Assembly (NCBI GenBank): GCA_017549805.1 | Contig: JAFYNJ010000028.1 | Span: 38,033 to 102,032, forward strand | Direction of reading: 5' to 3' | Length of the DNA: 64,000 nt | From: Bacteroidales bacterium | GTDB taxonomy: Bacteria > Bacteroidota > Bacteroidia > Bacteroidales > F082 | Shown: piece by piece, positions 1-38,467 of the stretch | Position numbering within the stretch: position 1 is the stretch's first letter | Layout: every line of letters starts with the position of its first letter | Translations under genes and position numbers: made by a program | The notes under the pieces: model-generated | What the model saw: the letters and a program-made list of their open reading frames with translations, nothing else | The model's database searches: none | What the model was told of the DNA's origin: nothing

Positions 1-870
1 TACAAAGTAACCCTTTTGGGCAGCGTCGTCAACGTGGTGTTAATGCTGTTCAAGTTTGTGGCCGGCATCTTCGGCCACAGTGCCGCCATGATGGCCGACG
101 CGGTGCATTCCTTGTCGGATTTCGCCACCGACTTGGTGGTGTTGGCTTTTGTACGCATCAGCAGCAAGCCCAAGGACAAAGGCCACGACTACGGCCACGG
201 CAAGTATGAAACCCTGGCCACCACTTTGATTGGCGCGGCTCTGTTTGCCGTGGCGGCGGGTATCTTGGTGGAAGGTGCCAGAAAAATCGCCTTTTGGGCA
301 AAAGGCGGCACCCTGACGCAACCCGGCATGTTGGCACTTTGGGCCGCTTTGATCTCCATCCTGTTGAAGGAAATCATCTTCCAATATACCCGTCGCAAGG
401 CCAAGAAACTCAACTCTCAGGCCATGGAAGCCAACGCCTGGCATCATCGCAGCGATGCCCTGTCGTCGATCGGGACGGCCATCGGCATCGGGGGTGCCAT
501 CATCGGGGGGGAGCGATGGGCTGTGTTGGATCCCATCGCTTCCATCGTGGTGGGCGCCTTTATCGTGAAGGTGGCCGTCGATTTGCTCCGCAAAGGCGTG
601 GGCGAGCTGATGGAACAGTCGTTGCCCGATGAAGTGGAAAACGAAATCCTGGAAATTGTCAAGTCAGTCCCCGATGTGGTAGAACCGCATGATCTTTGCA
701 CGCGGCGCATCGGCAACCATTACGCCATCGAGATGCATATCCTCATGGATGGCGAACTGCCCTTGAAAGAGGCCCATGACAAAGCCACAGAAATCGAGCA
801 ACGGCTGAAGGAGCGCTACGGTGAGGAGACGCATGTAGCGATCCATGTTGAGCCGGTGGAAAACATTTGA
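1..870 (+). CDS. Cation diffusion facilitator (CDF) family transporter, 5' end outside the window
   Basis: The frame is open from base 1, so the start codon lies upstream of the window; the TTG at 16 is not convincing as a start. CDF proteins export divalent metals such as Zn, Fe or Mn in exchange for protons across the inner membrane. Visible are several membrane segments, an HSLSD (HxxxD) motif in the second helix and HHRSD (HxxxD) in the fifth, which together form the metal site. A soluble C-terminal dimerisation domain ends in HVEP, as is usual for the family. His plus Asp in both motifs hints at zinc, but this is inference. The stop codon overlaps a fragment of an unrelated T9SS gene (867-914), and a terminator follows. 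Confidence 0.9.
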   Translation, partial: YKVTLLGSVVNVVLMLFKFVAGIFGHSAAMMADAVHSLSDFATDLVVLAFVRISSKPKDKGHDYGHGKYETLATTLIGAALFAVAAGILVEGARKIAFWAKGGTLTQPGMLALWAALISILLKEIIFQYTRRKAKKLNSQAMEANAWHHRSDALSSIGTAIGIGGAIIGGERWAVLDPIASIVVGAFIVKVAVDLLRKGVGELMEQSLPDEVENEILEIVKSVPDVVEPHDLCTRRIGNHYAIEMHILMDGELPLKEAHDKATEIEQRLKERYGEETHVAIHVEPVENI

Positions 871-914
871 TCAACGGTGACGACTTGAAGACACAGAAGA
901 TCGTTGTGCGATAA
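867..914 (+). pseudogene. Relic of a T9SS C-terminal sorting domain
   Basis: Fifteen codons ending in TAA read LINGDDLKTQKIVVR. They match about 40 of 45 bases of the last codons of the T9SS protein gene that ends at 8173 (LINGDDLKTQKIVIQ). The first codon overlaps the stop of the CDF gene. It has no start and no upstream domain. It looks like the leftover 3' end of another T9SS cargo gene, joined to the transporter gene by deletion or recombination. Confidence 0.65.
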
Positions 915-989: not shown

Positions 990-1063
990 CAGCCTCAAAA
1001 AAACCAGAGGGCTTTTCCCTCTAACTTGCAGATTATTAACACATAATAAAATACAAAGTAAGA

Positions 1064-4000
1064 ATGAAGAAAACATTTATCCTCATCCTCCTCGCCCTCC
1101 TCGCCTTTGCGCCGATGGCGTGGGCACAAATCAACTACATTGATGCCAATGGCGACCCGGCAACATGTACAAATTACCAGATTCTTGACGACATCATTTC
1201 TGCCGCCCCTAATTCCGATAAAATCATCGGTTACGAAAACATGGACAACTGGTTTGTCCTGCAAGGCAGTAATGTTGTTTTGAACGGCAGGCTTGGGTAC
1301 CAAGGGAACTTGCATCTGATTCTATGCGACGGTGCAAAGCTCACCATCAACAATGCCGATGGCAATGCTATCAAAAGCCTTGACGAAACCGAGACCATTA
1401 CCACGCTGACCATTTATGTTCAGGAATATGGTACCGGCCAGCTTGTGACTAACGCCGCTATCCAGACAGAAAATATCACCATCAATGGTGGTGTCATCAG
1501 CGTTACCAGCGGCGGTGCCGGTATCTATGCTCCAAGCAACGACATCGTTATCAACGGAGGTACCGTCACGGCCTCAGCCCCGAACGGGGATGCCATCGAA
1601 GGCTACAACGTCACCATCAATGGCGGCATTGTCAGCGCCACTGGAAACGGTGGTATCAAAAATGGTCAGACAGGCAAGACCATCCTTGGCTACACCAACA
1701 ATACTGACCGTATCACAGCCACTAATTATCAAAACGGCTATACGGCGAGTACGCGTATCAAAGACGGCCAGTATATGATTACCGACAACGGAGTTATTGT
1801 TTATGGCCCACTCAACCAAAACAAGCTGAACGCCATTGCTGGCCACACCCTCAGTCCTTACAACCCAACGGAATGGGAAGGCAGCGGCGATAGCGCCGAT
1901 GATCCCTACATCATCGCTTCGGTCGATGACCTCAACCTCCTCTCCCTGCGTACCAATGGCAGCGATAATGACTACAGCGGCAAGTATTTCAAGCTTGGAG
2001 CCAACATCACCTACACGCCCAGCACCACATGGAATGATGCCACTAGTACCGAGAACAACTTCACTGCCATCTCAGGATTCAATGGCCATTTCGACGGCGA
2101 CGGAAAGACCATCAGCGGCCTCCGCATCTTTGCAACCGATAATTACCATGACCAAAACGGTTTCTTTAGTAATCTTGGTCCGAATGCCTATATTGAGAAT
2201 CTCACCATCAGCGATGCCCGCATCGCCGGTCAATCGCAAGTGGGCGCCATTGCTGGTTATGTTAATGAAGGTGCAGCCGTCACGAACTGCCACGTCACTG
2301 GCACTGTCGCTGTTCATGCCTGGGGTCATACGCTCCAAAATCACGGCGGCGTTGTGGGTATCAACTACGGTACAATCTCGGATTGCATCAGCGAAGTGAC
2401 CATCAGAAGGAATGATAATTACGCTTATGGAAGTGAAAAAGTTGGTGGCATTGCCGGCACCAACTCTGGCACCCTGTCGGGTAACAAGGTTTTCAATGCC
2501 AATATCACTGCTGCTGATCATTACGGTGCCATCGCCGGTTTGAACGACGGCGGTACCTTTACCAACAACTACTACCGCGCCTGCACCATAAACGATACTG
2601 CCAACGTTACCGACAAGGGATGCGACGGTGCCGATGTCACCACTGGCGACGGTGCAATGAGCATTCACACCATCACAAAGCCCAACGATGTCACCATCAA
2701 CACCGAACCCACTTTAGTATATGGCGAAACCAACTACTGGAAGCACGGCGCAACAATCACTTTGAACGGAGGCTTGGACGATACCCCAACCGATGGCTGG
2801 CAGAAGGCCTATTATATCAATGGCGTGGCGCTTCAAGAAAACAGCACCACTATCAAAAACAATTTCGATATGCCCGCCGAGGATATTGAAATCACTATCG
2901 GCGAAATCCATGCCGACTGGGCCACTTCAGGAGCCCAGGGTACGGAGCAGGACCCCTACCTGATTTACTTTACCGACCAACTTGACCTGTTGGCCACCCG
3001 CGTGAACAACGGCACCAGTACCTACAGCGGTAACTATTTCAAGTTGATGGACGATCTCACATACAGCTATAATGGCTTAGGCTCAGACGAAAGCAACTAT
3101 ACCCCTATCGGTTTTGGTTATGAGAACAACATGTTCATGGGTCACTTCGACGGTAACAATAAGTCCGTCAGCGGCATCCGCATCAGAAAGACGGGTACAG
3201 GCACTGACGCTTGCTACTTGGGTCTTTTTGGGAGTACTAAGGAAGCTGAGGTGAAAGATGTCACCATCAAAGACACCGAAATCATCGGACACAGATATCT
3301 GGGTGGCGTGGTTGGCCATAGTTGGGCCAGCATGGTTAGCGGATGTCACGTGTGGAACAACGTCTCCATTATCCTAGCAAATAATGACTCTAATACCGCT
3401 GGTGGTATCGTGGGTCACAACGATTTTTACCATACAACCACTGTCACAAACTGTACCAGTGAGGTTCATATCCATACTAATACCAATAGTCAATGTTACA
3501 ATATCGGCGGCATTGTAGGTCTGAATGATGGTGAGGTATCAAACTGCTTTGTCATGTCAGCCAATATCGGCGGTGGAAGTCAAGTGGGTGCCATTGTGGG
3601 ACTAGGTCGGTACCAACACGCTCTTTCCAACAACTACTACCGTAACTGTGTCGTGAACAATGCGTCCACCAACGTGGGATACAATGGCGCCGATGTCACC
3701 GATAACGACGGAGCTGTGGGTGTTTACACCATCACCATCAACGCCCAGGATGTCATTTTATCAAGTTCAAACGAGCCTATGGTTACCTACCAAGGAACAG
3801 ATTATTGGAAATCTGGTCAAAACATCACCCTTGAAGGAGGCTTGAACGGCACTCCTACCCCCGGCTACCAAAAAGCTTATATTATCAATGGCGAAGCACT
3901 CACAGAAAACACATTTGTCATGCCGGCAAACGATGTGACTGTCACAGTCGGTGAGATTCACGCCGACTGGGAAACTGCAAACGCTGGTACTGAAGTTGAC

Positions 4001-7000
4001 CCCTACCTGATTTACTTCACCGACCAGCTCGACCTTCTCGCCTCCCGCACGAACAACGATCCAACCAAACACGGATACGCCGACAAATACTTCAAGTTGA
4101 TGAATGACCTGACCTACAGCTATGAAGGCCTCGACGCTACCGAGAGCAACTACACTCCCATCGGCGGCAATACAAACCATTTCTATGGCCACTTCGACGG
4201 CAACAACAAAACCATCAGCGGTATCCGTATTTATAAAGGTGGAACATCACAAGCTGTGGATGATTTCCAAGGTCTCTTTGGCTACATGGATTATTGGTAC
4301 CAACATGAAATAGGTGATGTGAAGAACCTTACACTCGACGATGCCGTGATTACAGGAAACGATTGTGTGGGCGGCATTGTGGGACGTTTGTATGGCGGCA
4401 CGGTGGACAACTGTCACGTGACCTCCTCTGTCTTTATCAATACGGTTGTCGATGGCACCTATGGTCATGGTGGTATCGTTGGCGATCTCACCAACCACAC
4501 AGCTACCGTAAGCCACTGCACCAGTTCCGTCACACTCACCGTCGCCCCAGAGATTAGCAATCTCAGTGAATATGGTGGCATCGTTGGCTGCTGCTATTCC
4601 TATTGCACGCTGACTGATAACTTTGCCATCGGTGCAACCGTTCCTGGATTAACGGGGAGTTACAGTAATGGTGCCATCACTGGAGCTGTCAGCTACGGCA
4701 TCCTTGAGCGCAACTATTACCTGGGTTGCAAAGTGGGAAGCGAAAACGTCACTCCTTCTGGTGTTGGCTGCGGCGGTTACAATGTTGACCCATACGACAT
4801 TATTGAAAACGACGGTGCTGTGCCGGTGTTTACCCTTAGTGTGGCCTCGGGCATCACTGCCGAGGCCACAGTCACCCTCACTCATAACGAAGTGGACTAT
4901 TACAAACTCGGCACCTCGGTTTCTCTCTCTTACGTCACTCCGGCGGCCCCTGGCTACCGTCACATCTACTCCGTAAATGGCTGGCCCATAGAAGGCAACA
5001 TTTTTTACATGGATGACGATGCCGAAGTCACCGTTGCCCCGAATCAACTCATCGACTTTGAAGAACACCAAGGCTCCGAGGACGACCCCTATTTGATTTA
5101 TTTTAAAGAACAGTGGGATCTTTTGGCAGAACGTGTGAATGGAACCAATGCCGCTCCCAAAACCTACAGCGGCAAGTTCTTCAAGCTGATGGAGGACATC
5201 AGCATCACCACCATGGTGGGAGCCAATACAACCGACAAGTATTTCGCTGGCACCTTCGACGGTAATGGGCACAAACTGACTGTCAGCTACAACAACACCA
5301 CTGACCAGCATACTGCAGCGTTCCGCAATGTTATAGGCGCCACTATCAAGAACCTTCATGTGGACGGTACCATCGAAACATCCACGTATGGTCCCGGCGG
5401 TATTGTAGCCAACAACTACGGTGTCACCCTCATCAACTGCCGCAGCAGCGTCAGCATCACCAGCAGCCGTAGCGATGCCGCCGCTGGTGGCCTTATCGCC
5501 TACACGAAAGGTTCTGTTCACACTACCATCGAAGGCTGCGTCTTCGATGGCACGCTCACTGCCACTGGTAGCGCCAATAATTTTGGCGGTTTCATGGGTT
5601 GGGTCAACTGCAATGATGGTGCCACTGTGAGTATCACTAACAGTTTATATAACCCTGTAAGCACCAATGTCACTTCGGGTTGCATGACTTTTGTCCGTGC
5701 CTCTGAAGCTGACCTCAACAACAATATCAATATCACCAATTGCTATTACACCCAAACCCTCGGCACCGCCCAAGGCGACAAGGTTTACACCATCACCCCT
5801 GCCGAGCCTGTCACTGTGCAACTCTTAGGCGATGCCGAAGTTTATGATGTCAGCGGTATCACCATTTATGGCACAGGAGACAAAGGTCTCAAGTTCGACG
5901 ATGTGTTTTATGCCGCCAGCGGAAATGTGTTGGACCTCAACCTTGGTGTTACTGTTCCTTTCACCGTCGCCAACTATCTCGCCAACGGAGAGGTCATTAC
6001 CTCCGACAATACTGGGAACAACTACATCTTGACCATGCCTGATGAGGATGTCACCATCACCGCCACCTTCTCTGATGTTGCATGGGACGGCGAAGGAACC
6101 GAGGAATCGCCATATCTTATTTATTATAACGTCCAGTGGGACCTCTTGGCCACCAATGTGAATGCCGGCAACAACTACAACGGTGTGTATTTCAAGCTGA
6201 TGGACGACATCAGCGTCGAGACTATGGTGGGCAGTACTAACAGACCTTTCCGTGGCATCTTCGATGGCGGTGGACATACACTTACCTTCAACAAAGGTAC
6301 CGAAGCGTCGCCTTACGATCAGAACTTCTGCGCCCCGTTCAAGGCGGTGGAAGCAGCTACCATCAAGAACCTCCACACCACTGGTGCCATCTACACCTCG
6401 AAACAACATGCCGCCGGTTTTGTGGCCCAGTTAATACCCAATACAGGCAACTTCACGCGGTTCATCGGTTGCCGTTCCAGCATGAAGATCAACAGCACGG
6501 TGGCTTCCGATGCAAGAACCGGAGGCTTCATTGGTAGTTGCTCCGACGCCATACCAGATTTTACCCATGTACCCGAAAGATTAAGCATCTTTTTTGAGGA
6601 TTGCCTTTTCGACGGCGAGTTCAGTGGCACTGCCACGGGCTGGGGCGGCTTTGTCGGTTATTATTTCCACTGCGAAAGTGAGGGGGGGAACTCTGGTATG
6701 GTAGATTTTACCCGATGCCTGTTTGCCCCTTCGGCCATGAACATCAGCACTACCGATGCCTATAATTTTGTACGCTCCGATGTATTTGGTTGGGACGAGG
6801 TGTCTGGTGAGTGGCACCATGCCAATTATTCGTATCCCGAAGATGTAATGACGATAACCAAACTCTACTACACCATCACTTGCGGCGATTTGGAGACTTA
6901 TCTAGATGAGGTTCAACCTACCCTAGTGGGCAATATGACCAACGTGCAGCTCCGCAACGCCCTCGGCGACAACTGGATGATTGTCACAGAAGACAACGTC

Positions 7001-26511: not shown

Positions 26512-28317
26512 CTATTCTCTTACTTTATATTTTTGACCAGGGTGGTTTTCTTTGGGGAAAAGCATTTTTAATACACCCGCCATTTCTGGTAATATTTTGT
26601 TTCGAATATATTGTTTGTTCCTCCCTACGTGTACTGCTATTTCACTGGCTGTTCTCCATTCTGAGCAATACTTTATTATTTCGTTGCATAATTCTTCTTT
26701 TCGCATTCTTTTGGGAATAGGGGTTGCAACCTTTTCACTTGAGGTTGCAACCTTTTCACTTGAGGTTGCAACCTTTTCATCCGAGGTTGCAACCTTTTCA
26801 TCCGAGGTTGCAACCTTTAGCAAATAAACTGTTCCTCTACCGTGTCCTTTGGATATTAGGAATTCTTCTTTGCACAGTCTTTGAAGCAAGTGTGTAATAT
26901 CTGCGGGGTGCATGGCCAATACGTCCCGTAGTCTTTCATTGTTAATAATCCCTTCTGTTAAAGCGATTGACAAAGCCATAATATCTTCCTTGTCCCTGTT
27001 TTTTATTCTGTTCCCAAAAATTTTGTCCAGTTCCGATAGCACTTTCTCGTCAAGCAACGACTCAAGAGGCATGATCAATTCCACTTTATTCGGTTGGGCT
27101 TTTTCCACAGGATAGGGACGTTTCCAATTCAAAGTTTGCCACCCTTTCATAATTTTATCCACACCGCTACCAGCTTTTTCCGCTGAACCTATCATCATGA
27201 ACATTTGCTGTAAACTTTTGTTCCGACATACACTTTCTCCGCCTTGGTAAAATTGTTGTTTTGAAATCAGCATGGTTCCAGGATTGGAAAACACTATTCT
27301 ATGTGGAAATAGATTTACTATCAAAGACGATTCCTCACTATAGTCTGCATGGACACAAAGATTAGCAAAAGCCTCACGGATAGCTTCATGTGCAGGGGTT
27401 TCGTCACGACGTTGATTACCCTCAAGCTGAAAAGGTGTTGGTATTACCTGTTGGAGTTTGGGGAGCACCCTGCGATAGAATTGAAACAGGTTAGCCTCCC
27501 AGGTACCATCAGGGTAAACGCGATCCATCCATCTAGTCGCAGATGTGTCCGCGGGAATCTCTTTATAGTCGGGGAAAAAACGAGGTGCACAGCTTTGGTC
27601 GGTAATAGCTTCATACTTACCAAACATGAGAAGGCCTGCCATGGTAAAACCTTCTTCCCCTGTTTCCCGATCTTTTCTGTAACCTCCGAGTTTTCGCATC
27701 AATTCATCATTGCTCAACGAGTGCCATGGGTGACTGGGTCTTGCTATGGCAAATAGGCGGCGGTATTGCTCAAACGAGGGGAGGTCTATGTCGTTCCAGG
27801 AATAGTTCTTCAGCACCCTTCCGTCAGCGGGGCGCATAACATCAGCATCGGCGAACATACGCCTTACTTCGGCACTACTACAAAGGTAATCACCTTCGTG
27901 ATTGCGACGAAAGGTCCCATTGAAAGCGTCTTGTGTACAATGTATCGGTCGCTGGTCTCGCTGTGCCTGTGGAACATGAAATAAAACAACTTTTGCCCCT
28001 TCAATTTCTGCTACTTGAACATCATTATTTTTCAAAAGACAAGTATTGATGGTATTCTTATTGTGGGCACCACTCCAAAAATCTTTCTGTATTTTATCAA
28101 CTTCCTCGTCAGTCAGACAATTCAATGTGAAGATGTCGTCTTTTTCTTTCACTCCAAGGACAATGGTACCTCCATGGGTATTGGCGAAGGCTGAATAGGT
28201 TTCCCAGAAACTTTTCGGGAAGCCGCCTTTAGCTGACTTGAATTCCACCTCGGTTGTCTCCTTATCCCTCATCAAGTTGGAGACAAGTATCTGCATGTTG
28301 TTATAGTCGTAAGTCAT
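26512..28317 (-). CDS. AlbA_2 (Schlafen-like) regulator with ATP-binding domain and C-terminal repeats
   Basis: 601 residues. The N-terminus (ETTEVEFKSAKGGFPKSFWETYSAFANTHGGTIVLGV) is an AlbA_2/AAA_4 domain. The middle part with HEAIREAFANLCVHADY and SAEKAGSGVDKIMKGW resembles the HATPase_c_4-type region of these proteins. A helical HTH region follows, then five seven-residue repeats (KVATSDE/KVATSSE), then a second HTH near the end (RTASEIAVHVGRNKQYIRNKI). Such proteins are common in genomic islands and are thought to be regulators, some being phage-defence parts. A -7 box TATCTTTG (28359-28366, minus strand) lies upstream. Confidence 0.82.
   Translation of the reverse strand: MTYDYNNMQILVSNLMRDKETTEVEFKSAKGGFPKSFWETYSAFANTHGGTIVLGVKEKDDIFTLNCLTDEEVDKIQKDFWSGAHNKNTINTCLLKNNDVQVAEIEGAKVVLFHVPQAQRDQRPIHCTQDAFNGTFRRNHEGDYLCSSAEVRRMFADADVMRPADGRVLKNYSWNDIDLPSFEQYRRLFAIARPSHPWHSLSNDELMRKLGGYRKDRETGEEGFTMAGLLMFGKYEAITDQSCAPRFFPDYKEIPADTSATRWMDRVYPDGTWEANLFQFYRRVLPKLQQVIPTPFQLEGNQRRDETPAHEAIREAFANLCVHADYSEESSLIVNLFPHRIVFSNPGTMLISKQQFYQGGESVCRNKSLQQMFMMIGSAEKAGSGVDKIMKGWQTLNWKRPYPVEKAQPNKVELIMPLESLLDEKVLSELDKIFGNRIKNRDKEDIMALSIALTEGIINNERLRDVLAMHPADITHLLQRLCKEEFLISKGHGRGTVYLLKVATSDEKVATSDEKVATSSEKVATSSEKVATPIPKRMRKEELCNEIIKYCSEWRTASEIAVHVGRNKQYIRNKILPEMAGVLKMLFPKENHPGQKYKVRE
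26728..26820 (-). repeat. Tandem 21-bp repeat in the AlbA_2 gene
   Basis: GGTTGCAACCTTTTCA plus five variable bases (CTTGA or TCCGA) is repeated four times with a partial fifth unit. It preserves the frame, so copy changes would only alter linker length. This is a VNTR candidate. Confidence 0.85.
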
Positions 28318-29144: not shown

Positions 29145-30128
29145 TTATTTAAGTTTAGATTGAATTGCTTTAAGCCGTTTCATAATAGCATTAATTTCAA
29201 AATTGATTTTATTCTTTAGGTCATCATTAATATCATCAAACTTATCTTCTAAATCCGGATCATTGATAAATTCCTTAAATCTCCTTATTCTTTGTAAATC
29301 CTCATCTAACACTCCAGACTCTTTAACACTTTCATAAGCTTTTTCTAGTGATACTTTTCCTTCTCGATATTGAGCCAAAGCCTTCTTCCCTGCTTTAGAT
29401 TTAGACTTAACTATATCTCCCAGTTTGCGAATATCAGATGCCTCATGAATCTTACCTGTTTTTATATCTTCAACAACCTTTTCTTCTAGTTCTGGATTAT
29501 CTTTTACAACGTTCTTTATAGCTCTATTTTTCAAAAACTCTTCATAATAACTCCATCTCATTGGATTTAAATCATTTTGCTCTTTCATGTACCCATACAC
29601 CTCGATATACTTCTTAGCGTTGGTTGTTGATAATCCCAACGATCTCGCAAAATCTTCGATTTTCACTTTGGTGGCTTCCAGCCCCCTAACCAAAAAACCA
29701 GCTTGTTCAAAAGGACTCCAATCTTTCCTACCGACAATGTGATATTGACCTAGAATTGTCAATATGGTTGATTGCTCAATATCTCTAGGTAATATTTTAC
29801 ATTTTACTTTGCCCCATTTAACTGGATCTTCTTTCACTAATTTCCGATATGCAGCAAGACGACTATTACCTTCAAGAACAACGAAGTCTCCATCCCTGAC
29901 AATTAAGGGGTCTATCAACCCGACTTTTTTTATCGATTGACGAAGAACCTTAACATGCTCCATAGAAAGCATATGCTCTTCAATTTCTTCTTGACTTGGG
30001 GTGCCGCCATTGGTCCGCAATATAGTATAAACTCTTGGATTCTCTTCATAGAATCTTAATTCTAATACGGGTAGTTCTTCTATACGGACATTAATTCTAG
30101 TCCCAGAAATGTCTATATAATCTTCCAT
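29145..30128 (-). CDS. ParB/Srx-fold protein, distal copy in the island operon
   Basis: 327 residues. The N-terminal ~100 residues show the ParB/sulfiredoxin fold: LRFYEENPRVY, VLRQSIKKVGLIDPLIV and the nucleotide-loop motif VVLEGNSRLAAYR, in place of the GERR of chromosomal ParB. An HTH-like region follows (HIVGRKDWSPFEQAGFLVRGLE; EDFARSLGLSTTNAKKYIEVY). The C-terminal half is charged and helical. This domain order suggests sequence-specific DNA binding with an NTP-dependent clamp or nuclease activity, but no catalytic role is shown. It lies 4 bp behind the SNF2 gene. A divergent paralogue is at 32026-33030. Confidence 0.82.
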   Translation of the reverse strand: MEDYIDISGTRINVRIEELPVLELRFYEENPRVYTILRTNGGTPSQEEIEEHMLSMEHVKVLRQSIKKVGLIDPLIVRDGDFVVLEGNSRLAAYRKLVKEDPVKWGKVKCKILPRDIEQSTILTILGQYHIVGRKDWSPFEQAGFLVRGLEATKVKIEDFARSLGLSTTNAKKYIEVYGYMKEQNDLNPMRWSYYEEFLKNRAIKNVVKDNPELEEKVVEDIKTGKIHEASDIRKLGDIVKSKSKAGKKALAQYREGKVSLEKAYESVKESGVLDEDLQRIRRFKEFINDPDLEDKFDDINDDLKNKINFEINAIMKRLKAIQSKLK

Positions 30129-30132
30129 TTTC

Positions 30133-31608
30133 TTAGGTGTTTTCTATGTTCAATAATTCTTTAATCAAATCACCATAACTATAATCCATAATCGACTGGT
30201 ATTTTGCTAGTTTGTAATCGCCTTGTGCCAAAAAAGCAGCGTTTTGCTTTGCTTGTAACAATTTATCCACCCATATATCAACACTATCATCTATCATAAG
30301 GTTATAAATATTACATGTTTTTTTTTGCGATATTCTATGGATTCTATCTTGAGCTTGTAGGTAATCATCCAAATTGAAACCTCTGTCATAAAAAATCACA
30401 TTATTTGCCACAGTAAGCGTTAATCCCTCCTTTGCAGCTTGTGGGGTGGCAAATAGGATTTTAGCATCGCCAAATTTAAACCGTTCAACCGATTTGTTCC
30501 TGTCTTCAATTGCCATTCGACCATGTATTTTTACTGGCGAATACTGCTTATAGATTTTACTAAAGTACTCAGCGTTCTCAATGAATGAAGACCAAATGAT
30601 AACCTTTTCATCTCTCTCCATAATAGCGGAGACCAATTCCTGCAATTTTATCTCTTTTCCAGAAAACGAACCATACAATTCATCTACTAGTCTAGGGTTT
30701 GATGCTACTTGAACCAATCTGAGCAGTCGCTTTAAGCATGCTTCCGAATCATCTAAAACGGCTTCGCCATTTTGTTGAACGAAGGCCATCATCTCGTTTT
30801 TTATCTTATTGTAAAGAGCTTTTTGTTTCGGCTCAAATGAACAATAAATATTGAAATACTCCTTGTTAGGTAATGATATAACACCGCTGTTTTTAGTTTC
30901 GCGAACAGTAAAAACTTTTATCTTCTCGAAAATTGAAGCAACCTCGTCTTCAAAGGCCTTTCTCTCGTTTGAATTGTCGGCCATAGAATTGGTAAGATTT
31001 GTATTTGTTTTGAACTTATTAAAATCTTCACCCAAACTCTGCCCAAAATCCAAAAAATAAATTTGAGCCCATATATCGTATGGCCTATTTGCAACAGGAG
31101 TCCCTGTCATTATTGTTCTAATTTTGAACAATGGAGCCAAGCGGAAAAAAGATTGTGTTAGTTTTGCATCTGGATTTTTGATCTTTGTCGATTCATCAAT
31201 AATAATAGCTGTATTTCTAGCCTTTAAAAAAAGGCTTAGTCTTTCTTCCTCACCTGAGATTGTTTCAAAATTCGTAATGATTACACGAGAAGGGCTATTC
31301 AACACATAAAAATTGTCTGCCTTATTACTACTTATCGTTTGTGGTTTTATATGAGTATGAAAAGCAAATTCATTTTCCCAATTTCTGACAAGCTGTTTTT
31401 TTGTTACAATCATTACCGTATCAATGTCACGCTTTTCTAGCCAATATAGCAACAAATCAATAGCAATCTTCGTTTTCCCTAGTCCTTGCTCATGGAATAT
31501 CGCAGAATAATCTAAGTCTTTTACTGCCTCAAATGCTTCTTGCTGATACGGAAAAGCGTTTTGCGTAGCGGATAAATCGAAACGATATGTATAATTGATT
31601 TTACCCAT
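30133..31608 (-). CDS. SNF2-type DEAD/DEAH helicase
   Basis: 491 residues, essentially a bare helicase core. Walker A is EQGLGKTKIAIDLL, motif II is IIIDESTKIKNP (DEST in place of DEAH), and motif III is MTGTPVANRPYDIW. The C-terminal domain has VIIWSSF, KEGLTLTVANNVIFYD and AQDRIHRISQKK (motif VI). SNF2 enzymes translocate on double-stranded DNA and remodel bound proteins. Its start overlaps the nuclease stop by 1 nt (TAATG), so the two are translationally coupled. Confidence 0.9.
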   Translation of the reverse strand: MGKINYTYRFDLSATQNAFPYQQEAFEAVKDLDYSAIFHEQGLGKTKIAIDLLLYWLEKRDIDTVMIVTKKQLVRNWENEFAFHTHIKPQTISSNKADNFYVLNSPSRVIITNFETISGEEERLSLFLKARNTAIIIDESTKIKNPDAKLTQSFFRLAPLFKIRTIMTGTPVANRPYDIWAQIYFLDFGQSLGEDFNKFKTNTNLTNSMADNSNERKAFEDEVASIFEKIKVFTVRETKNSGVISLPNKEYFNIYCSFEPKQKALYNKIKNEMMAFVQQNGEAVLDDSEACLKRLLRLVQVASNPRLVDELYGSFSGKEIKLQELVSAIMERDEKVIIWSSFIENAEYFSKIYKQYSPVKIHGRMAIEDRNKSVERFKFGDAKILFATPQAAKEGLTLTVANNVIFYDRGFNLDDYLQAQDRIHRISQKKTCNIYNLMIDDSVDIWVDKLLQAKQNAAFLAQGDYKLAKYQSIMDYSYGDLIKELLNIENT

Positions 31609-32039
31609 TAAACATTTATTTCTGGAACCCCATTTTCACTAATAATAATGACTTTGGTGTCAAATCCATTCTGCCGTTTGATGAACTTTATCAAAGTCTT
31701 ATAGGACAATGAAACCGTCCATGAGCTACATAAAACCAACAACGCTTCACCTTTAAAGGACTGACATTCTCTCAAATAGGTGATATATTGGTCTTTACTG
31801 TGCGATGTATCAAAATCTTTAATGGTTTTTGCTTCGCCAATGATTAACTTATTATCATGGCAGAAGTATAAATCAGGACGATAGTTCCCCATCAAGGGAG
31901 GTTTATATGTTGACTCAGGCTTGTCAACATACACGAAACCTCCTTGTTCGGAAGGAATCGTACGTAGAACATACTGTTCTGCTAGATTTACATAATCCAT
32001 ATGTGTTTTAGATTCAGCGATAGTGTTATTCTCCTTCAA
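31608..32039 (-). CDS. PD-(D/E)XK nuclease-like protein
   Basis: 143 residues. Asp56 in NYRPDLYF and Glu69/Lys71 in LIIGEAKT form the PD-x(n)-ExK active site, and KDQYITYLRECQ supplies the usual downstream helix (Q in helix). The small size fits Holliday-junction resolvase or VRR-NUC-like folds. It overlaps the upstream ParB-like gene by 14 bp and the SNF2 gene by 1 nt, so it is central to the operon and is likely the DNA-cutting subunit. ATG 32039 or an internal Met (MDYVN) could be the start. Confidence 0.75.
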   Translation of the reverse strand: MKENNTIAESKTHMDYVNLAEQYVLRTIPSEQGGFVYVDKPESTYKPPLMGNYRPDLYFCHDNKLIIGEAKTIKDFDTSHSKDQYITYLRECQSFKGEALLVLCSSWTVSLSYKTLIKFIKRQNGFDTKVIIISENGVPEINV

Positions 32040-33030
32040 TAAAACTCAATACATCATCAAGAGAGTCTTTCAATTCATATAACAAGCTTTTTCTTTTTGA
32101 GGCACCAGCGTCCTCTTCCTTTTTTAATGCTTTTATTTCTTCAAATGGAACATTGCGCAACTTACCAATAAGTGCTTTTGTTAATTCATCATATCTAACA
32201 TTCTTTAAATCAACATTCTGAGAAGTAGCGGTATTTAGTTTTCGAATAGCATCAGTAATATTTGATTTGAGAAATTCTTTTTTTGCCGCGGAATCTGCCA
32301 GTATTTCCGGAAGCAAACGGACATTCATTGCAGTATCTATATTATGATCAAGCACCCATTGAGCGAAATCCTTTTCTGTATACCCATTAGCATTTAAGGC
32401 ACTTTTGATTCTTCTATTTTGCAGTTCCGAGAATTTTGAGAATTCTCTTGGGTCTGGTTTTTCTCCTTCAAGCAGTGGTATATAATACTGTTGCATATCA
32501 TTATATGCATATATCAACTTCAATATTTCACTCTTTTTACCACCACAAAAATCTATAATTGTATTAATAGGAAGCCCTTCAATGTTATATAATTGGTTGA
32601 GATATTTCGCTTTTGAATATGCATCCCAATCTCTTGGTCCAACCATGTGGGATTGTAGCCTAATGGAATCTATTTCTTGTTTGGACAAGTTTTCGTACAC
32701 TATGCAGCGAAGAGTTGACCAAATACTATCTTGGGTTTTGGCATAAAAGTCTCTATAAATCTGCAACCTTGTATTTCCTTCAATTACTACATATTTCCCT
32801 TCGTTAGTGTGGTTAACTATGATTGGATGGATTACGCCTCTATTCACTCTAATAGATTCACGAAGAGCAGAAAACGTAGTAGAACCATCAGTTGTACTAC
32901 CTGTCAATGCTAAAGCAATTCCTTCTGCTGTAACATTTTCTCCATACATATCTAGAAATTGGCTTATTCTAGGGTTTTGTATGTCCAATTCCAGTAAATC
33001 AATTTTTAATTCTTGATAAGAGCTATTCAT
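32026..33030 (-). CDS. ParB/Srx-fold protein, proximal copy in the island operon
   Basis: 334 residues with the same architecture as the distal copy: LDIQNPRIS, LRESIRVNRGVIHPIIV, VVIEGNTRLQIYRDF, then SHMVGPRDWDAYSKAKYLNQLY and an HTH-like segment (INTIIDFCGGKKSEILKLIYAYND). The two proteins share the EGNxRL loop and the HxVGxxDW box but little else, pointing to an old duplication and perhaps a heterodimer. It follows the radical SAM gene by 57 bp and overlaps the nuclease gene by 14 bp. Confidence 0.8.
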   Translation of the reverse strand: MNSSYQELKIDLLELDIQNPRISQFLDMYGENVTAEGIALALTGSTTDGSTTFSALRESIRVNRGVIHPIIVNHTNEGKYVVIEGNTRLQIYRDFYAKTQDSIWSTLRCIVYENLSKQEIDSIRLQSHMVGPRDWDAYSKAKYLNQLYNIEGLPINTIIDFCGGKKSEILKLIYAYNDMQQYYIPLLEGEKPDPREFSKFSELQNRRIKSALNANGYTEKDFAQWVLDHNIDTAMNVRLLPEILADSAAKKEFLKSNITDAIRKLNTATSQNVDLKNVRYDELTKALIGKLRNVPFEEIKALKKEEDAGASKRKSLLYELKDSLDDVLSFIEGE

Positions 33031-33087
33031 ATTATAATTGGTTTTATGTAATATCGTTTTGGTTAATCCCTTCGCTTTTCAATTCTT

Positions 33088-34506
33088 TCAATGATTCCAA
33101 AGTGTCGGATTTATTAAGTTTAATAATTTAAAGTTAAACATTTCTATGAGTTCCTTTCTAGATTCAGGAAACATTTCCAACACATCAAGAACAGTTTGTA
33201 ATGGCTTACAGATTTTACGAATTTTACCTCGTTCATCCTCCCTCTCATAATAACCAGTTTCATAGTCCTGTTGAAACTCTTCGAACGACTTGAGTTCCTT
33301 CAGCACTTCAAAACCTGCCTTCTGCTCCCAGTAGGTTTGATTACGATATATGTATTCCCAAAATGACATCTTTTTATAAAATGCCTGTTGATTACACCAC
33401 CGAGCAATTTGGATGTATATGTTGGAAATAGGAGCATTATGATAGTCTTCATGACGCATAATATATCCAACACAACCGTATGTCATCAGCACCTTGATAC
33501 GTTGGAAAATTTCCCAAATGTCCTTATAGAATTTTTCACGATTATCCTCGCTCTGTTTGAATCCGCAAAAAAGGTAGAATTTCGTACCCTTCTTCGGGTT
33601 GTAAAGTTTCCATATTTTCAAGGCCTTTTCTATCTTCGGACGGTCTTTCCAATTATCAAAAGCAAAGATAAAGTCACCATGATAGTGTACACGAGAAAGC
33701 ATCTCTGCCATCTCTTCGCCACAAGGACTTTCTGCCAGCATACGCTCGTCAAGGCCCTGACGGAACTGAAATGGGCGACCGGTGTCAATCAGTTGCTGCA
33801 AACATGTTCGCCAGACCTCGGGGTCAGCAGCAAGGAAATTATCATCCCAAAGATAAATATATGGACGAACCAGACGGCCATGTTCGTCACGTTCTTCATC
33901 AAGAAACCATTCAAGCTTGGAATATGGGAAGATTCTATCTTCTAACTTATTAATACAAAACGGACAGTGGCGAATACACCCTCGGGTGAGGAAACCAATA
34001 CTGTATTGTTGATAGTCCTTGTACTTATCTCGTTTGAAACCCTCACGAACTTTAAGGTCTACAAATTCGTCATAAAGGTGGTAATACGGCATCTGACGGG
34101 CAAGGTCGATGCCATTAGTACGAGAGCCGCCACAATGGTTGGTATAGCTATTGAGAAATTCATCATTCTCCAGCTGATTCATGTCCTTCTCGCGCTTGTA
34201 GCGATATTTGTTAATATTTAATTCGTTAGCATAGAAACCCGTACCTCCTTTGCGAAATTTGTGCTTTTTTTGATATGGAGATGCGTTTTTATAAAAGGTC
34301 GGTTCTTGAGTAAACGTAAAAACGCGGGAAATGTAGATGTATTTGTATGGTTTGATATCTTCGTCTTGGTCAATAATTAACTTGAAATCAATACCATTAT
34401 CATTGAAAAATCCTGCCAGTTTCATCAACACAAGATTAGGATGTCTTGTCCCGTTGCAAAGCAAGTCGGCATCAACAAGTCCTATCTTTAGTTTCCGTCT
34501 CGGCAT
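33088..34506 (-). CDS. Radical SAM protein, first gene of the island operon
   Basis: 472 residues. CIRHCPFC at residues 177-184 is the CxxxCxxC motif that binds the [4Fe-4S] cluster and SAM. The N-terminal ~130 residues (KIGLVDADLLCNGTRHPNLVLMKLAGFF; YIYISRVFTFTQEP) form a Rossmann-like domain found before the radical SAM barrel in many uncharacterised proteins of mobile elements. It lacks the usual B12-binding DxHxxG. The viperin motif CNxxCxYC is absent. The substrate is unknown; modification of a nucleic acid or nucleotide would suit the DNA-directed neighbours, but this is inference. Confidence 0.8.
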   Translation of the reverse strand: MPRRKLKIGLVDADLLCNGTRHPNLVLMKLAGFFNDNGIDFKLIIDQDEDIKPYKYIYISRVFTFTQEPTFYKNASPYQKKHKFRKGGTGFYANELNINKYRYKREKDMNQLENDEFLNSYTNHCGGSRTNGIDLARQMPYYHLYDEFVDLKVREGFKRDKYKDYQQYSIGFLTRGCIRHCPFCINKLEDRIFPYSKLEWFLDEERDEHGRLVRPYIYLWDDNFLAADPEVWRTCLQQLIDTGRPFQFRQGLDERMLAESPCGEEMAEMLSRVHYHGDFIFAFDNWKDRPKIEKALKIWKLYNPKKGTKFYLFCGFKQSEDNREKFYKDIWEIFQRIKVLMTYGCVGYIMRHEDYHNAPISNIYIQIARWCNQQAFYKKMSFWEYIYRNQTYWEQKAGFEVLKELKSFEEFQQDYETGYYEREDERGKIRKICKPLQTVLDVLEMFPESRKELIEMFNFKLLNLINPTLWNH

Positions 34507-35204: not shown

Positions 35205-35212
35205 TATCTTTG
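35205..35212 (+). promoter_or_regulatory. -7 box of small-protein gene copy 1
   Basis: TATCTTTG, 21 bp before ATG 35234. The same box sits at the same place in copy 2. It excludes the ATG at 35201 as the start. Confidence 0.55.
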
Positions 35213-35233: not shown

Positions 35234-35641
35234 ATGAACATCCCTACTGGCAACAACAATGAAGAGCTTAAGCAGCGTAAAGATATCATCTCACAATTGT
35301 ACCGACAGTGGACCGATAGTAATCCAGACAAGAAGGTTTTCAACCCTTCGTTGAAAGGTGATGTTAATAATCGGTTTGTATCAATCACCGAAACCATGCG
35401 ACATGCCGCGAAAACTTATCGCTCAACGCTGGCTCTGTTCTATTTAGACAGAATACTTCGGAACGCTGTCATCGTCGGCAAGCCAAAACCACCCAAGAAA
35501 GGCGTTGCCAACCAAAAGCCGTTCAAATACTTACTAGAAACCCATTGCTTGTTGCATGGAATAGGCATGGCAAAAATGATGGTGGGGGTGAAACGTTCGG
35601 GGGAGATGATCCTATACTGCATTACCGTTATGGACCAATAA
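35234..35641 (+). CDS. Small BECR/LPD3-like protein, copy 1
   Basis: 135 residues. After a polar helical N-terminus (NEELKQRKDIISQLYRQW), ITETMRHAAKTY, a KPKPPKK loop, KPFKYLLETHCLL, MVGVKRSGEM and a final strand (YCITVM) give the helix-then-sheet order of BECR-type nuclease or LPD3 domains found in phage polyvalent proteins and toxins. That assignment is by pattern only. It is 81-84% identical to the protein of copy 2. It converges with a predicted small RNA whose terminator abuts its stop codon, which suggests toxin-antitoxin-like regulation. Confidence 0.7.
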   Translation: MNIPTGNNNEELKQRKDIISQLYRQWTDSNPDKKVFNPSLKGDVNNRFVSITETMRHAAKTYRSTLALFYLDRILRNAVIVGKPKPPKKGVANQKPFKYLLETHCLLHGIGMAKMMVGVKRSGEMILYCITVMDQ

Positions 35642-35727
35642 AAAAAGAAATCGACAGGTTGGCTCGCTCGTGAGAGGTCATCGCCAAATTCTGGACGTCT
35701 AAAGGACTGTTCCCCTATTGATTTCTC
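35640..35727 (-). ncRNA. Predicted ~87-nt structured small RNA, copy 1
   Basis: The minus-strand transcript begins 5-6 nt after a TATCTTTG box. Its 5' AGAAATC pairs with GATTTCT directly before a run of seven U; inside, ACAG pairs with CTGT and TTGGC with GCCAA, so three helices are nested. The sequence is ~96% identical to copy 2, and the one base change within a helix leaves a G-U pair. It terminates at the stop codon of the convergent small-protein gene. No known RNA family was recognised. Confidence 0.65.
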
Positions 35728-35731
35728 GCCG

Positions 35732-35761
35732 CAAAGATACAACGAAAATTTGATTTTGCAA
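35732..35761 (-). promoter_or_regulatory. Promoter of small RNA copy 1
   Basis: Minus strand: TTG (35759-35761), 19-nt spacer, TATCTTTG (35732-35739). In copy 2 both boxes and the spacing are kept although the spacer sequence differs. Confidence 0.7.
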
Positions 35762-35801: not shown

Positions 35802-36593
35802 CTAATTCCACTCTTTTAGGTTCAATATTTTCGAAACCTCCTGGAGCACACCCTTCAGTAAACCACGATTATCCTGATAAATCCTGTCAGACCTATAAAT
35901 AGCTTCTATTTTTGCTGTCAACGATTCCATCTTTTGCGCAATCAAATAAACCAAGTTACTTAAGTCATCAGCTTCAACCATCTCTGAAACTTTAATCTCA
36001 ACTTTATCGGCAAAGGTGGCAGGGCGAAGGTTTTCGGATTCGTCCAAAATGTAACTTTTACCCGGATTTCCAGAAACTTGTTGAAGGATGTCGATAATGG
36101 ATATTTGCGAATTGGCTTTGAGAGTGGATATTAGTGAATAAAGGTTGTCCGGTTTCGTGTCCTGAACTATATCCACACAGTCATGGTAAAGGTCGCTGAA
36201 AACTGTGTGATATTTCAGTTGTTCGTGGGAGATGTCGTGAGTTTTGATGGAGCCATCCGAATTGTAGTCTTCGTCATCATCGGAGCCATACTCATTGATA
36301 GCATCAAGACGCTTTGAGAGCGCATAGTATTCCCAACTTCCCGAATATTCGTCGAAGTAGTCATTGATGATGTTTTCCCATTCATTCAGACGTTCAAAAA
36401 CACCATGAAACCATTTCTCCCATAGAACAGTTTCATAATAACTCTGCATCTTAAACGCAGCCAACTCACCTGTCGCATCACTGAATGTCCGAGGAAGACT
36501 CATTGTACGCAATAGTGAGAGTTTACAAATAATACGATTGAAAGCCTTCGCCAATGGCAATTCGTTTATTATGGGTTCAATGAATTCTTTCAT
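35802..36593 (-). CDS. Unknown partner of the DUF1016 nuclease
   Basis: 263 residues, mostly helical and acidic (GSDDDEDYNSDGS near the middle), with no signal peptide or membrane segment. No family was recognised. It overlaps the DUF1016 gene by 4 bp (ATGA), so the two are translated together and probably form a complex or a toxin-antitoxin-like pair. It has the low GC of the island. Confidence 0.7.
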   Translation of the reverse strand: MKEFIEPIINELPLAKAFNRIICKLSLLRTMSLPRTFSDATGELAAFKMQSYYETVLWEKWFHGVFERLNEWENIINDYFDEYSGSWEYYALSKRLDAINEYGSDDDEDYNSDGSIKTHDISHEQLKYHTVFSDLYHDCVDIVQDTKPDNLYSLISTLKANSQISIIDILQQVSGNPGKSYILDESENLRPATFADKVEIKVSEMVEADDLSNLVYLIAQKMESLTAKIEAIYRSDRIYQDNRGLLKGVLQEVSKILNLKEWN

Positions 36594-37687
36594 CTTTTCT
36601 TGGTTTTCTTTCCTTGTTCTAACTCAGCCACCGTTCGTTCAACCACCTCCTGCAATTGATAGGTGGCTACGCCTAACGGTTTGCCAATATCCTGCAATGA
36701 CCATTCAACTATGGTTTTCTTGGCCGTTTTGCAAATCAACAATCCCACCGAGGGATTATCGTCTTTACCACGAAGCAGTTTGTCGACGGCGGTGACATAG
36801 AAATTTAGTTTGCCGGCAAACTCCGGCATGAACTTCACAGCCTTTAACTCAATGATGAAGTATCGGCGTTGTGGGATGTGATAAAACAACAAATCGGGAA
36901 AGAATACTGATTCATTGTCAATCCGCAACTCTCGTTGTCGCCCGAGATAGGCAAACCCTTGACCGAGTTCCAATAGAAACTCCGTCACATTTTTAGCTAA
37001 AGCGTTTTCCAAGTCTTTTTCTTGCTCAACTGCTTCAACTGTTACAAAACTAAGATCATACTCCTTTTTCAGCAATTCTTTGGCCGACTCGCTCTGAGCA
37101 ACCGGCAGTGTCTTGTCAAAGTTAGTGATGGCCGCGCCTTGTGTGAGAAAAAGATGGGTGTCGATCTCGTGTTCCAAGCGGGCACGACTCCATCCTTCGG
37201 TTGCCACTTTGTTGATATAAAAGAGGGCTTCTTCAAGAGATTTGCTCTTAGTGAAAATGTACACATGGTGTTTCCAAGGTATGACACCAAAAATCGTAGG
37301 CATTTCCAATTCGTCACCAGCTTGGTGACGATTTATAACTTGCTCATAATAAAACACATACCATCGTTTTATGTATTTCAAATTTGTCACAGAGAATCCT
37401 TTTTCGTCAGGAAACATGGCCCTCATGTCAAGGCTTAGCTGATTAAAGAATCCACTACCCCATTTGCTTTCAGCTTTCCGCTGAACAATGTCGCGGCCCA
37501 AGCTCCAATAATACTCCAGTAGAAACGTATTAACCTTGACAGAAGCTTTTGCCTGGCTCTGTCTATAGCGGGCTTTAAGCTCTTTTAGCCATTCTACGTA
37601 TTCTTTATCGGCCAACATCCCGTCGCGAGATACAAATGCTGGTTCATCCATTTTGTTGTTTTGAGGGAATTGTGTTTTGTCGTTCAT
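36590..37687 (-). CDS. DUF1016 (YhcG-type) PD-(D/E)XK nuclease
   Basis: 365 residues from ATG 37687 (MNDKTQFPQNN). The N-terminal DUF1016_N helix region has NTFLLEYYWSLGRDI, GFSVTNLKYIKRWY and IPWKHHVYI. The C-terminal nuclease core has VFFPDLLFYH ... YFIIELKAVKFMPEFAGKLNFY, i.e. PD and ExK. YhcG-like proteins occur in restriction loci and defence islands and are predicted to cut DNA. The pair lies between two long direct repeats, like a swapped-in cassette. Confidence 0.88.
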   Translation of the reverse strand: MNDKTQFPQNNKMDEPAFVSRDGMLADKEYVEWLKELKARYRQSQAKASVKVNTFLLEYYWSLGRDIVQRKAESKWGSGFFNQLSLDMRAMFPDEKGFSVTNLKYIKRWYVFYYEQVINRHQAGDELEMPTIFGVIPWKHHVYIFTKSKSLEEALFYINKVATEGWSRARLEHEIDTHLFLTQGAAITNFDKTLPVAQSESAKELLKKEYDLSFVTVEAVEQEKDLENALAKNVTEFLLELGQGFAYLGRQRELRIDNESVFFPDLLFYHIPQRRYFIIELKAVKFMPEFAGKLNFYVTAVDKLLRGKDDNPSVGLLICKTAKKTIVEWSLQDIGKPLGVATYQLQEVVERTVAELEQGKKTKKR

Positions 37688-37911
37688 TGCTCGTAGTTTT
37701 TTTACATGGTGTTTTACGTAGATAAGTAGCAATAAAAGACAAAATGTTTCATTTCGGAAATCAATTTACTTTATTCTTCAATAGTGCTTTTAGACAAATT
37801 GTTAGATGGGATTATTTATAGTGTTATTTCGTTATATTTATAGAAATATAAACATTTTATCAATTAATTATAATTGATTGTATTATTTATATATAATTAA
37901 AGAATTTATAG

Positions 37912-37919
37912 TATCTTTG
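37912..37919 (+). promoter_or_regulatory. -7 box of small-protein gene copy 2
   Basis: TATCTTTG, 20 bp before ATG 37940; no clear -33 TTG at the right distance. Confidence 0.5.
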
Positions 37920-37939: not shown

Positions 37940-38347
37940 ATGAACATCCCTACTGGCAACAGCAACGAAGAGCTTAAGCAACGAAAAGATATTATCTCGC
38001 AATTATACCGACAATGGACCAATAGTAATCCTGACAAGAAGGTTTTCAATCCTTCATTGAAAGGCTATGTCAATGTTCGGTTCGTATCCATAACTGAAAC
38101 AATGCGCCATGCAGCGAAAACTTACGAATCGACACGGGCACTTTTCGATTTGAACACGATACTTCGGACTGCCATTGTTGTCGGCAAACCAAAACCGCCC
38201 AAGAAAGGTGTTGCTAACCAGAAGCCATTCAAATATTTGTTGGAAACCCATTGTTTGTTGCCAGAAGTAGGAATGGTGAAAATGATGGTAGGTGTGAAAC
38301 GTTCGGGAGAAATGGTCCAATATTGTATTACCGCTATGGACAAATAA
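37940..38347 (+). CDS. Small BECR/LPD3-like protein, copy 2
   Basis: 135 residues, the same length as copy 1. Conserved blocks are MNIPTGN.NEELKQRKDIIS, FNPSLKG, SITETMRHAAKTY, GKPKPPKKGVANQKPFKYLL and VGVKRSGEM. Differences cluster in the middle (residues ~60-80). The many silent changes suggest that both copies have been kept as proteins after duplication. The convergent small RNA is present here too. Confidence 0.7.
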   Translation: MNIPTGNSNEELKQRKDIISQLYRQWTNSNPDKKVFNPSLKGYVNVRFVSITETMRHAAKTYESTRALFDLNTILRTAIVVGKPKPPKKGVANQKPFKYLLETHCLLPEVGMVKMMVGVKRSGEMVQYCITAMDK

Positions 38348-38433
38348 AAAAAGAAATCGACAGGCTGGCTCGCTCGTGAGAGGTCTTCGCCAAATTCTGG
38401 ACGTCTAAAGGACTGTTCCCCTATTGATTTCTC
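38346..38433 (-). ncRNA. Predicted ~87-nt structured small RNA, copy 2
   Basis: It has the same length, helices and U-run as copy 1. The changes are few: GATGACC to GAAGACC in the apical loop, and GCCAA to GCCAG, which turns a U-A pair into a U-G pair. It begins 5-6 nt after a TATTTTTG box and ends at the stop codon of small-protein copy 2. Confidence 0.65.
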
Positions 38434-38437
38434 GCTG

Positions 38438-38467
38438 CAAAAATACATCAATTTTTTGATTTCGCAA
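38438..38467 (-). promoter_or_regulatory. Promoter of small RNA copy 2
   Basis: Minus strand: TTG (38465-38467), 19-nt spacer, TATTTTTG (38438-38445). Confidence 0.7.

Follow-up and report, generated by a model that had tools for sequence, protein, structure and literature searches.

A convergent structured RNA at the stop codon of LPD3 genes in Bacteroidales and phages: a candidate RNA-controlled toxin module

Convergent pairs in which a toxin gene and a short RNA overlap at the 3' end of the toxin are known from the type I systems bsrG/SR4 and txpA/RatA. In the yonT/SR6 pair, as treated in the relevant part of PMC5848175, an antisense RNA of 100 nt overlaps the 3' end of the toxin gene, and a section of PMC6563280 characterizes type I toxins as usually small and hydrophobic. 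According to the passages of PMC12373285 that deal with type III systems (ToxIN, CptIN, TenpIN), RNA repeats lie upstream of the toxin within the same transcript, and the passages on AbiF/RCd22 of Clostridioides difficile describe a toxic protein bound by a dedicated noncoding RNA with two repeated motifs, active in cis and in trans. The stretch of a Bacteroidales genome analyzed here, 64,000 nt long and hereafter called the window, contains two copies of a two-gene module composed of a gene encoding an LPD3 domain protein and a short structured RNA, designated type A. As in the part of yonT/SR6 just cited, the RNA overlaps the coding sequence where the latter ends, and the proposed action, a toxin-like protein combined with a dedicated RNA, resembles that of AbiF/RCd22 as far as the cited passages describe it; there, however, the RNA lies upstream of the toxin gene and the toxin belongs to the Abi_2 family, not to LPD3. 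We regard it as fairly probable that LPD3 and its convergent, separately promoted RNA constitute a toxin/RNA-antitoxin module with a type III-like mode of action.

In copy 1 the LPD3 gene (35234..35641, plus strand; Pfam PF18798) encodes the proposed toxin, a protein of 135 amino acids, while the RNA is predicted, from its sequence, its homologues and pair counts, at 35640..35731 on the minus strand as a transcript of about 87-92 nt with a U7 end. Gene and RNA are convergent and their 3' ends meet at the LPD3 stop codon in both copies; in copy 1 the terminator-like run of seven T (35640..35646, minus strand) overlaps the TAA stop at 35639-35641 (plus strand). A first-pass annotation made from the letters alone had pointed to a promoter-like TTG-N19-TATCTTTG followed by a stretch ending in seven T, and this arrangement is indeed present at 35761-35640 on the minus strand, with the -7 box TATCTTTG at 35732..35739, 19 nt from a TTG (-33-like) element at 35759..35761. 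All helices of this RNA are given on the minus strand: the closing helix P1 has its 5' arm GAAATCAATAGG at 35714..35725 and its 3' arm at 35647-35658, and the helix starts with AGAAATC at 35726, which pairs with GATTTCT; the almost invariant P2 hairpin GGA-GTC/GAC-TCC occupies 35693..35713; and P3 (35659..35687, from pair counts) joins TTGGC (35687-35683) to GCCAA (35663-35659) around an inner CTC/GAG hairpin. Copy 2 (38346-38467) has all parts of this RNA unit: the RNA, assigned by homology, at 38346..38437 (minus strand), the -7 box TATTTTTG at 38438..38445 (minus strand) and TTG at 38465-38467. Its LPD3 gene (37940..38347, plus strand; PF18798) likewise encodes 135 amino acids, and a further TATCTTTG box precedes each coding sequence on the plus strand (35205..35212 and 37912..37919). 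Between the copies the RNAs are identical at 90 of 93 positions and the open reading frames (ORFs) at 335 of 408 nt (82%), with 86 of 136 third codon positions and 21 of 60 positions of the flank past the promoter identical, so the RNA copies are more alike than the coding sequences, as had been stated. The stronger claim, that constraint acts more on the RNA than on the protein, must be read with caution: the RNA is well conserved, but the LPD3 copies are also under purifying selection (dN 0.076, dS 1.08), so that conservation extends to both members of the pair.

Both window proteins score above the PF18798 cut-off of 27 (copy 1, 28.5 bits, E 1.8e-6; copy 2, 32.3 bits, E 1.2e-7). The structure model, made from the protein of copy 2, is a predicted alpha/beta protein with a predicted local distance difference test (pLDDT) score of 96.1, and toxin or contact-dependent inhibition (CDI) entries make up 14 of the 15 highest VIA rows of a fold comparison; the matches are weak, and the predicted fold weakly resembles ribonuclease toxins of the RelE/BrnT/CDI type. 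ToxN has a MazF/Kid-like fold, whereas the LPD3 model matches RelE/BrnT-like folds, again weakly, and in contrast to the small hydrophobic peptides of the type I section cited above, LPD3 is modeled as a 135-residue alpha/beta protein at pLDDT 96. The window LPD3 gave no Pfam match to ToxN, CptN or TenpN, and these were not among the VIA rows, which excludes nothing. NCBIfam and a PDB sequence search with the LPD3 profile returned 0 matches each, and PADLOC returned a single weak one (E 0.0067). The domain is frequent in the host genus: of 172 genomes of the host family 84 have it, all 84 in one genus, and it occurs inside large proteins as well. In the host genome, further LPD3 genes on other contigs each have their own convergent RNA-like region (L067, 803-1276, minus strand, and 1408-1839, plus strand; L068, 1435-1860, plus strand; L061, 601-1860, plus strand). 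A survey of polyvalent proteins from 2017, whose LPD3 is, by its pertinent section, the same domain as that of the window proteins, calls the functions of LPD1-LPD40 elusive and places LPD3 in Helicobacter prophage proteins, and its passages on the domain mention no RNA partner (PMC5512222); no description of an LPD3-associated RNA was found among open-licence papers outside bioRxiv.

The pairing of the two genes was assessed in 38 type-A RNA loci (L001-L029, L035, L037, L039, L040, L049, L056-L059), some of them near-identical between genomes. An open LPD3 frame ends at the RNA in 32 of them, including L008, which gave no ATG start, and L025, with an N-terminus out of register, and remnants are present at L004 and L029; thus LPD3 or a remnant stands beside 34 of the 38 RNAs, in line with the expectation of the first-pass annotation that homologues would adjoin the same protein family. 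LPD3 was not found at the other four, L010, L027 (where the flank is no longer than 232 nt), L049 and L057 (an RNA without U-run), and the RNA therefore persists at six loci where the gene is broken or not found. In the family search, the 24 best LPD3 matches all lie 0-6 nt from a type-A RNA, and the next two do not. At L057 the RNA (792-879, minus strand) is followed by another long inverted-repeat stretch with no recognizable LPD3, which may be a different toxin with an RNA of the same kind. L052 carries three LPD3/RNA modules at 1000-6900 with very similar regions 5' of the genes, which suggests local duplication.

A DNA search with the type-A RNA gave matches in 25 of the 173 host-family genomes and in 4 of 393 genomes of an order sample. 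A covariance model matched 25 of 172 host-family genomes, so no more distant type-A members were gained within the family. When 84,980 species genomes were scanned with the type-A pattern, 30 stretches matched, one of which, in Paenibacillus (L031), has no LPD3 and lacks the flanking arms and is read as chance. The other 29 come from uncultured metagenome-assembled genomes, most of them titled Bacteroidales, Bacteroidia or Bacteroidetes, one Clostridia and two only 'bacterium', with rumen, reticulum or abomasum named in many titles; the contig labeled Clostridia (L039), from a rumen co-assembly, has a typical type-A module and is probably mislabeled or misbinned. Among viral contigs and plasmids no match to the window LPD3 protein was obtained, the module as DNA matched nothing in plasmids or phages, and the RNA pattern nothing in viral contigs.

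The structure of the type-A RNA was evaluated in an alignment of 29 sequences, 23 of them distinct, with pairs judged by five measures against 500 shuffles. The 25 nested pairs of the consensus are paired in 98.8% of cells, on four of the five measures 0 of 500 shuffles matched the alignment, and P3 shows both-sided changes at three of its five outer pairs, mostly from L027. Sequence conservation and some covariation thus bear out the initial view of a real structured RNA. Concerning the three helices named at first, AGAAATC/GATTTCT and TTGGC/GCCAA are contained in the consensus structure, but ACAG/CTGT is unsupported because the consensus partner of CTGT is ATAG. The TAnnTTTG -7 box is kept in 35 of 36 distinct type-A copies. 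That no known family would be recognized also proved correct: neither the window nor any of 10 loci from several RNA classes matched Rfam at the gathering threshold, and the two hits at a relaxed threshold, rli22 and a plastid family (E 3.6 and 9.8), were taken as chance. An integron attC site was considered as well and dropped on inspection, since a core-site motif is lacking.

What the first-pass annotation had not contained is that the partner is LPD3, that the layout is convergent, and that the pairing is general across LPD3 genes, with many different RNAs. In a first survey, LPD3 genes were found by the Pfam model alone and 10 of 37 loci were set aside beforehand (LPD3 internal or locus cut); 21 of the 27 surveyed PF18798 genes are followed within 250 nt by a TAnnTTTG box on the opposite strand, versus 6 of 66 control ORFs. 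Three of the 27 belong to type A, among them the two genes of the window. A second survey comprised 100 LPD3 loci drawn from rows after type A, not every row, with near-identical loci kept and not clustered (one of them, L105, had already been counted among the 27 as L065). Here the box is present on the opposite strand within 230 nt in 97 loci, 54 of them with strict TTG spacing, and 65 have at least five A within 12 nt of the stop, equivalent to a U-run on the RNA strand. Control ORFs, after removal of those followed by known RNA motifs and of phage LPD3 genes, have a box within 220 nt in 21 of 206 cases and strict spacing in 14.

The 102 RNAs made up of these 100 and the window's two form 13 sequence clusters, six of which are single RNAs; of the seven multi-RNA clusters, five are each associated with a single LPD3 cluster, another is divided unevenly between two (18 and 3), and the last is split evenly between two (8 and 8). 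The more alike two LPD3 proteins are, the more alike their RNAs tend to be (Spearman 0.35; 0 of 499 permutations in a Mantel test). Among the 78 scored RNAs, all with a T-run, 57 have closing stems with at least 8 of 9 pairs, as against 19% of shuffles, 22 of the 100 being unscored; alignments of divergent type-B RNAs (A5, A6), whose stems were never in register, were not used as evidence. Type A consists of one unit. Several loci of other types carry two units, which are either alike (L079, L071, L074, L172) or different, and 25 of 49 testable long transcripts, versus 0 of 147 shuffles, contain upstream a match to the 3' unit of another class. Twelve of these 25 upstream units match one RNA (L139), with scores of 23-29, and the strongest matches (L198, L171, L154, L150) reach 44-51. 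From such sequence relationships we infer that the RNA units are exchangeable modules, perhaps kept after the partner gene is lost. One 3' unit (GGAAATCGGGATGAGAG...CTCTTTAGATTTCC) adjoins two LPD3 groups from different protein clusters (L126, L127, L131-L135 and L138; L183, L190, L193, L194 and L196-L199; also L060). At L080 (1438-1992, plus strand) the LPD3 ORF has a C-terminal extension and apparently reads through the RNA region.

LPD3 is also present in phages, as the C-terminal domain of MuF-type proteins (PF04233 and PF18798) at L061, the host-genome locus mentioned above, and at L205, from a human faecal phage. These are relatives, not window proteins, and their MuF domains score 58.1 bits at L205 and 24.9 bits, below the 29.6 cut-off, at L061; at L079 and L208 Pfam gave LPD3 only, and relatives of L079 are annotated as Mu F-like or minor head protein. 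Two single LPD3 queries against viral contigs found no relatives, and a search of IMG/VR yielded 45 phage loci, of which 35 are open after removal of nine duplicates and of L210 (short flank). The box lies within 220 nt in 34 of the 35, with strict spacing in 23. These loci were chosen by protein only, their LPD3 is 31-60% identical to L079 apart from one identical copy, and 25 of the 35 share a loop motif. Because the 25 aligned RNAs were picked for carrying this motif once, the loop and the innermost G-C pair are fixed and only the three outer pairs are informative; the hairpin covaries at all three, with 16 both-sided cells. On three of five measures none of 500 shuffles did as well, and on the remaining two 62 and 64 did.

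The 7-nt loop UUG[U/C]A[G/U][U/C] occurs in 24 of the 35 distinct phage RNAs, and a geometric test detects an anticodon-arm-like hairpin in 26 of 35, compared with 5.4 expected from shuffles. The anticodon loop of the host tRNA-Tyr is CUGUAAA, and U33-G34-U35-A36 is common to it and the phage loop. This likeness in sequence may serve as a lead, not as a test, and does not extend to other classes: an anticodon-like hairpin common to all of them was tested and found unsupported, being present in 24 of 95 RNAs from other classes, where 16.4 were expected, and in none of type A. For the MuF toxins of Firmicutes, the pertinent part of PMC5576092 ascribes immunity to a small downstream ORF, found after 89.4% of 191 toxin genes. 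The phage LPD3 proteins at L061 and L205 resemble these polymorphic toxins in being MuF proteins with a C-terminal domain, but differ from that partial account in that our survey, which was directed at RNAs, places a convergent RNA in the downstream position.

A toxin-like protein with a dedicated convergent RNA, the survival of this RNA beside broken genes, the tracking of RNA and protein similarity, the phage loop motif with its covarying stems and the arrays of units are best explained by a toxin that directly recognizes the folded RNA as its antitoxin, and the shared loop motif together with the RNA similarity that follows LPD3 similarity hints that RNA and LPD3 may bind directly. In the mechanism that we lean towards, a short RNA would be transcribed from its own promoter towards LPD3 and end at the LPD3 stop codon; once folded, it would bind and inhibit the cognate protein, as the RNA does in type III systems. 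Strong separate expression of so short an RNA would keep it in excess over the toxin, which would be released once the locus was lost or its transcription stopped. The parallel with type III consists of a small protein toxin said to be neutralized by a structured RNA, of RNA organized in units and of a link to phage defence. Several observations qualify this proposal. The layout departs from that of type III, the LPD3 RNA being found downstream, on the opposite strand and behind its own promoter box instead of upstream and cotranscribed. Covariation in type A is modest, with both-sided changes in 4 pairs and only 5 cells, 4 of these from the divergent L027, none of them in P2, and P1 varying on one side only; the fifth pair measure, which counts further pair types, was equaled by 212 of 500 shuffles, and folding energy alone is weak evidence for structure (z -1.91 and -0.54). 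Of the 36 distinct type-A copies, no more than 15 have TTG at a spacing of 17-22 nt. Finally, the RNA is complementary to any LPD3 mRNA that reads past the stop.

Due to this complementarity, antisense control of the type I kind is the main rival, and one that we consider unlikely but worth serious attention: the convergent RNA would anneal to the LPD3 mRNA at its 3' end, blocking translation or triggering decay, with no contact between RNA and protein, in the geometry given for yonT/SR6 in the part of PMC5848175 cited above. A cis-antisense RNA, however, needs neither conserved loops nor covarying stems, and both are seen; unlike in the convergent type I pairs, RNA structure and loop motif are common to distant loci, the motif recurring in 25 of the 35 protein-chosen phage loci despite the low LPD3 identity. 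Moreover, the terminator-like hairpin immediately 3' of the LPD3 stop at L065 and L086 would, judging from the sequence, leave little overlap, and at 4 of 38 loci the RNA persists where no LPD3 was found. The same four loci (L027 with its short flank) speak against a ribonucleoprotein effector, in which the RNA would be a cofactor, guide or scaffold of LPD3 activity and not its inhibitor; the tight pairing, the structured RNA and the arrays would suit such an effector, but the type-A alignment has no variable spacer-like segment and LPD3 also occurs inside large proteins, which makes this explanation improbable. Slightly less credit still is given to a cis-regulatory or terminator element, whereby convergent transcription would merely limit LPD3 by interference. 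The A-run at 65 of 100 stops would fit it, but conserved structure and class-related sequence would be superfluous. The restriction of type A to 4 of 393 genomes of the order sample might even recall functionless mobile-element debris or chance, but the control comparisons and the pair counts contradict this, and we give it practically no weight.

The genes around the modules were also inspected. Between the two copies lie ORFs at 35802-36593 and 36590-37732 (minus strand), a YhcG/DUF1016 nuclease (Pfam 160 bits, with many PADLOC PDC-S02 matches) and an ORF of 263 amino acids of unknown function. A run of ORFs at 29145-34506 (minus strand) beside the modules includes an SNF2-type helicase and two ORFs without Pfam match, with weak matches under the cut-off to ParB_N (32026-33030) and Radical_SAM (33088-34506, minus strand), and may be a defence or mobile-element operon. 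Further away, at 26512-28317 (minus strand), a Schlafen/AlbA_2 protein with an HATPase_c_4 domain is encoded.

A broader and rather doubtful extension would have LPD3 mark a large undescribed class of RNA-neutralized toxins in Bacteroidota and their phages, including virion-borne MuF fusions, with the convergent RNAs as transferable immunity units, arrayed against several toxins, and the phage RNA as an anticodon-arm-shaped decoy of the toxin's target. The head-on pairing of RNA and toxin gene in gut bacteria and phages may be an undescribed way of controlling toxins by RNA. RNA antitoxins acting on the toxin protein are known for few toxin families. In those treated in the pertinent portion of PMC12373285 the RNA is located upstream in the toxin transcript; if the toxin/RNA-antitoxin reading is true, convergent and self-promoted RNAs of many classes acting on one toxin-like fold would widen the scope of RNA-based toxin control. 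LPD3, of unknown function in the pertinent part of the 2017 list (PMC5512222), would gain a function, and RNA immunity to phage-borne toxins would be suggested. The many natural LPD3/RNA pairs would then provide material for testing the coevolution of an RNA inhibitor and its protein.
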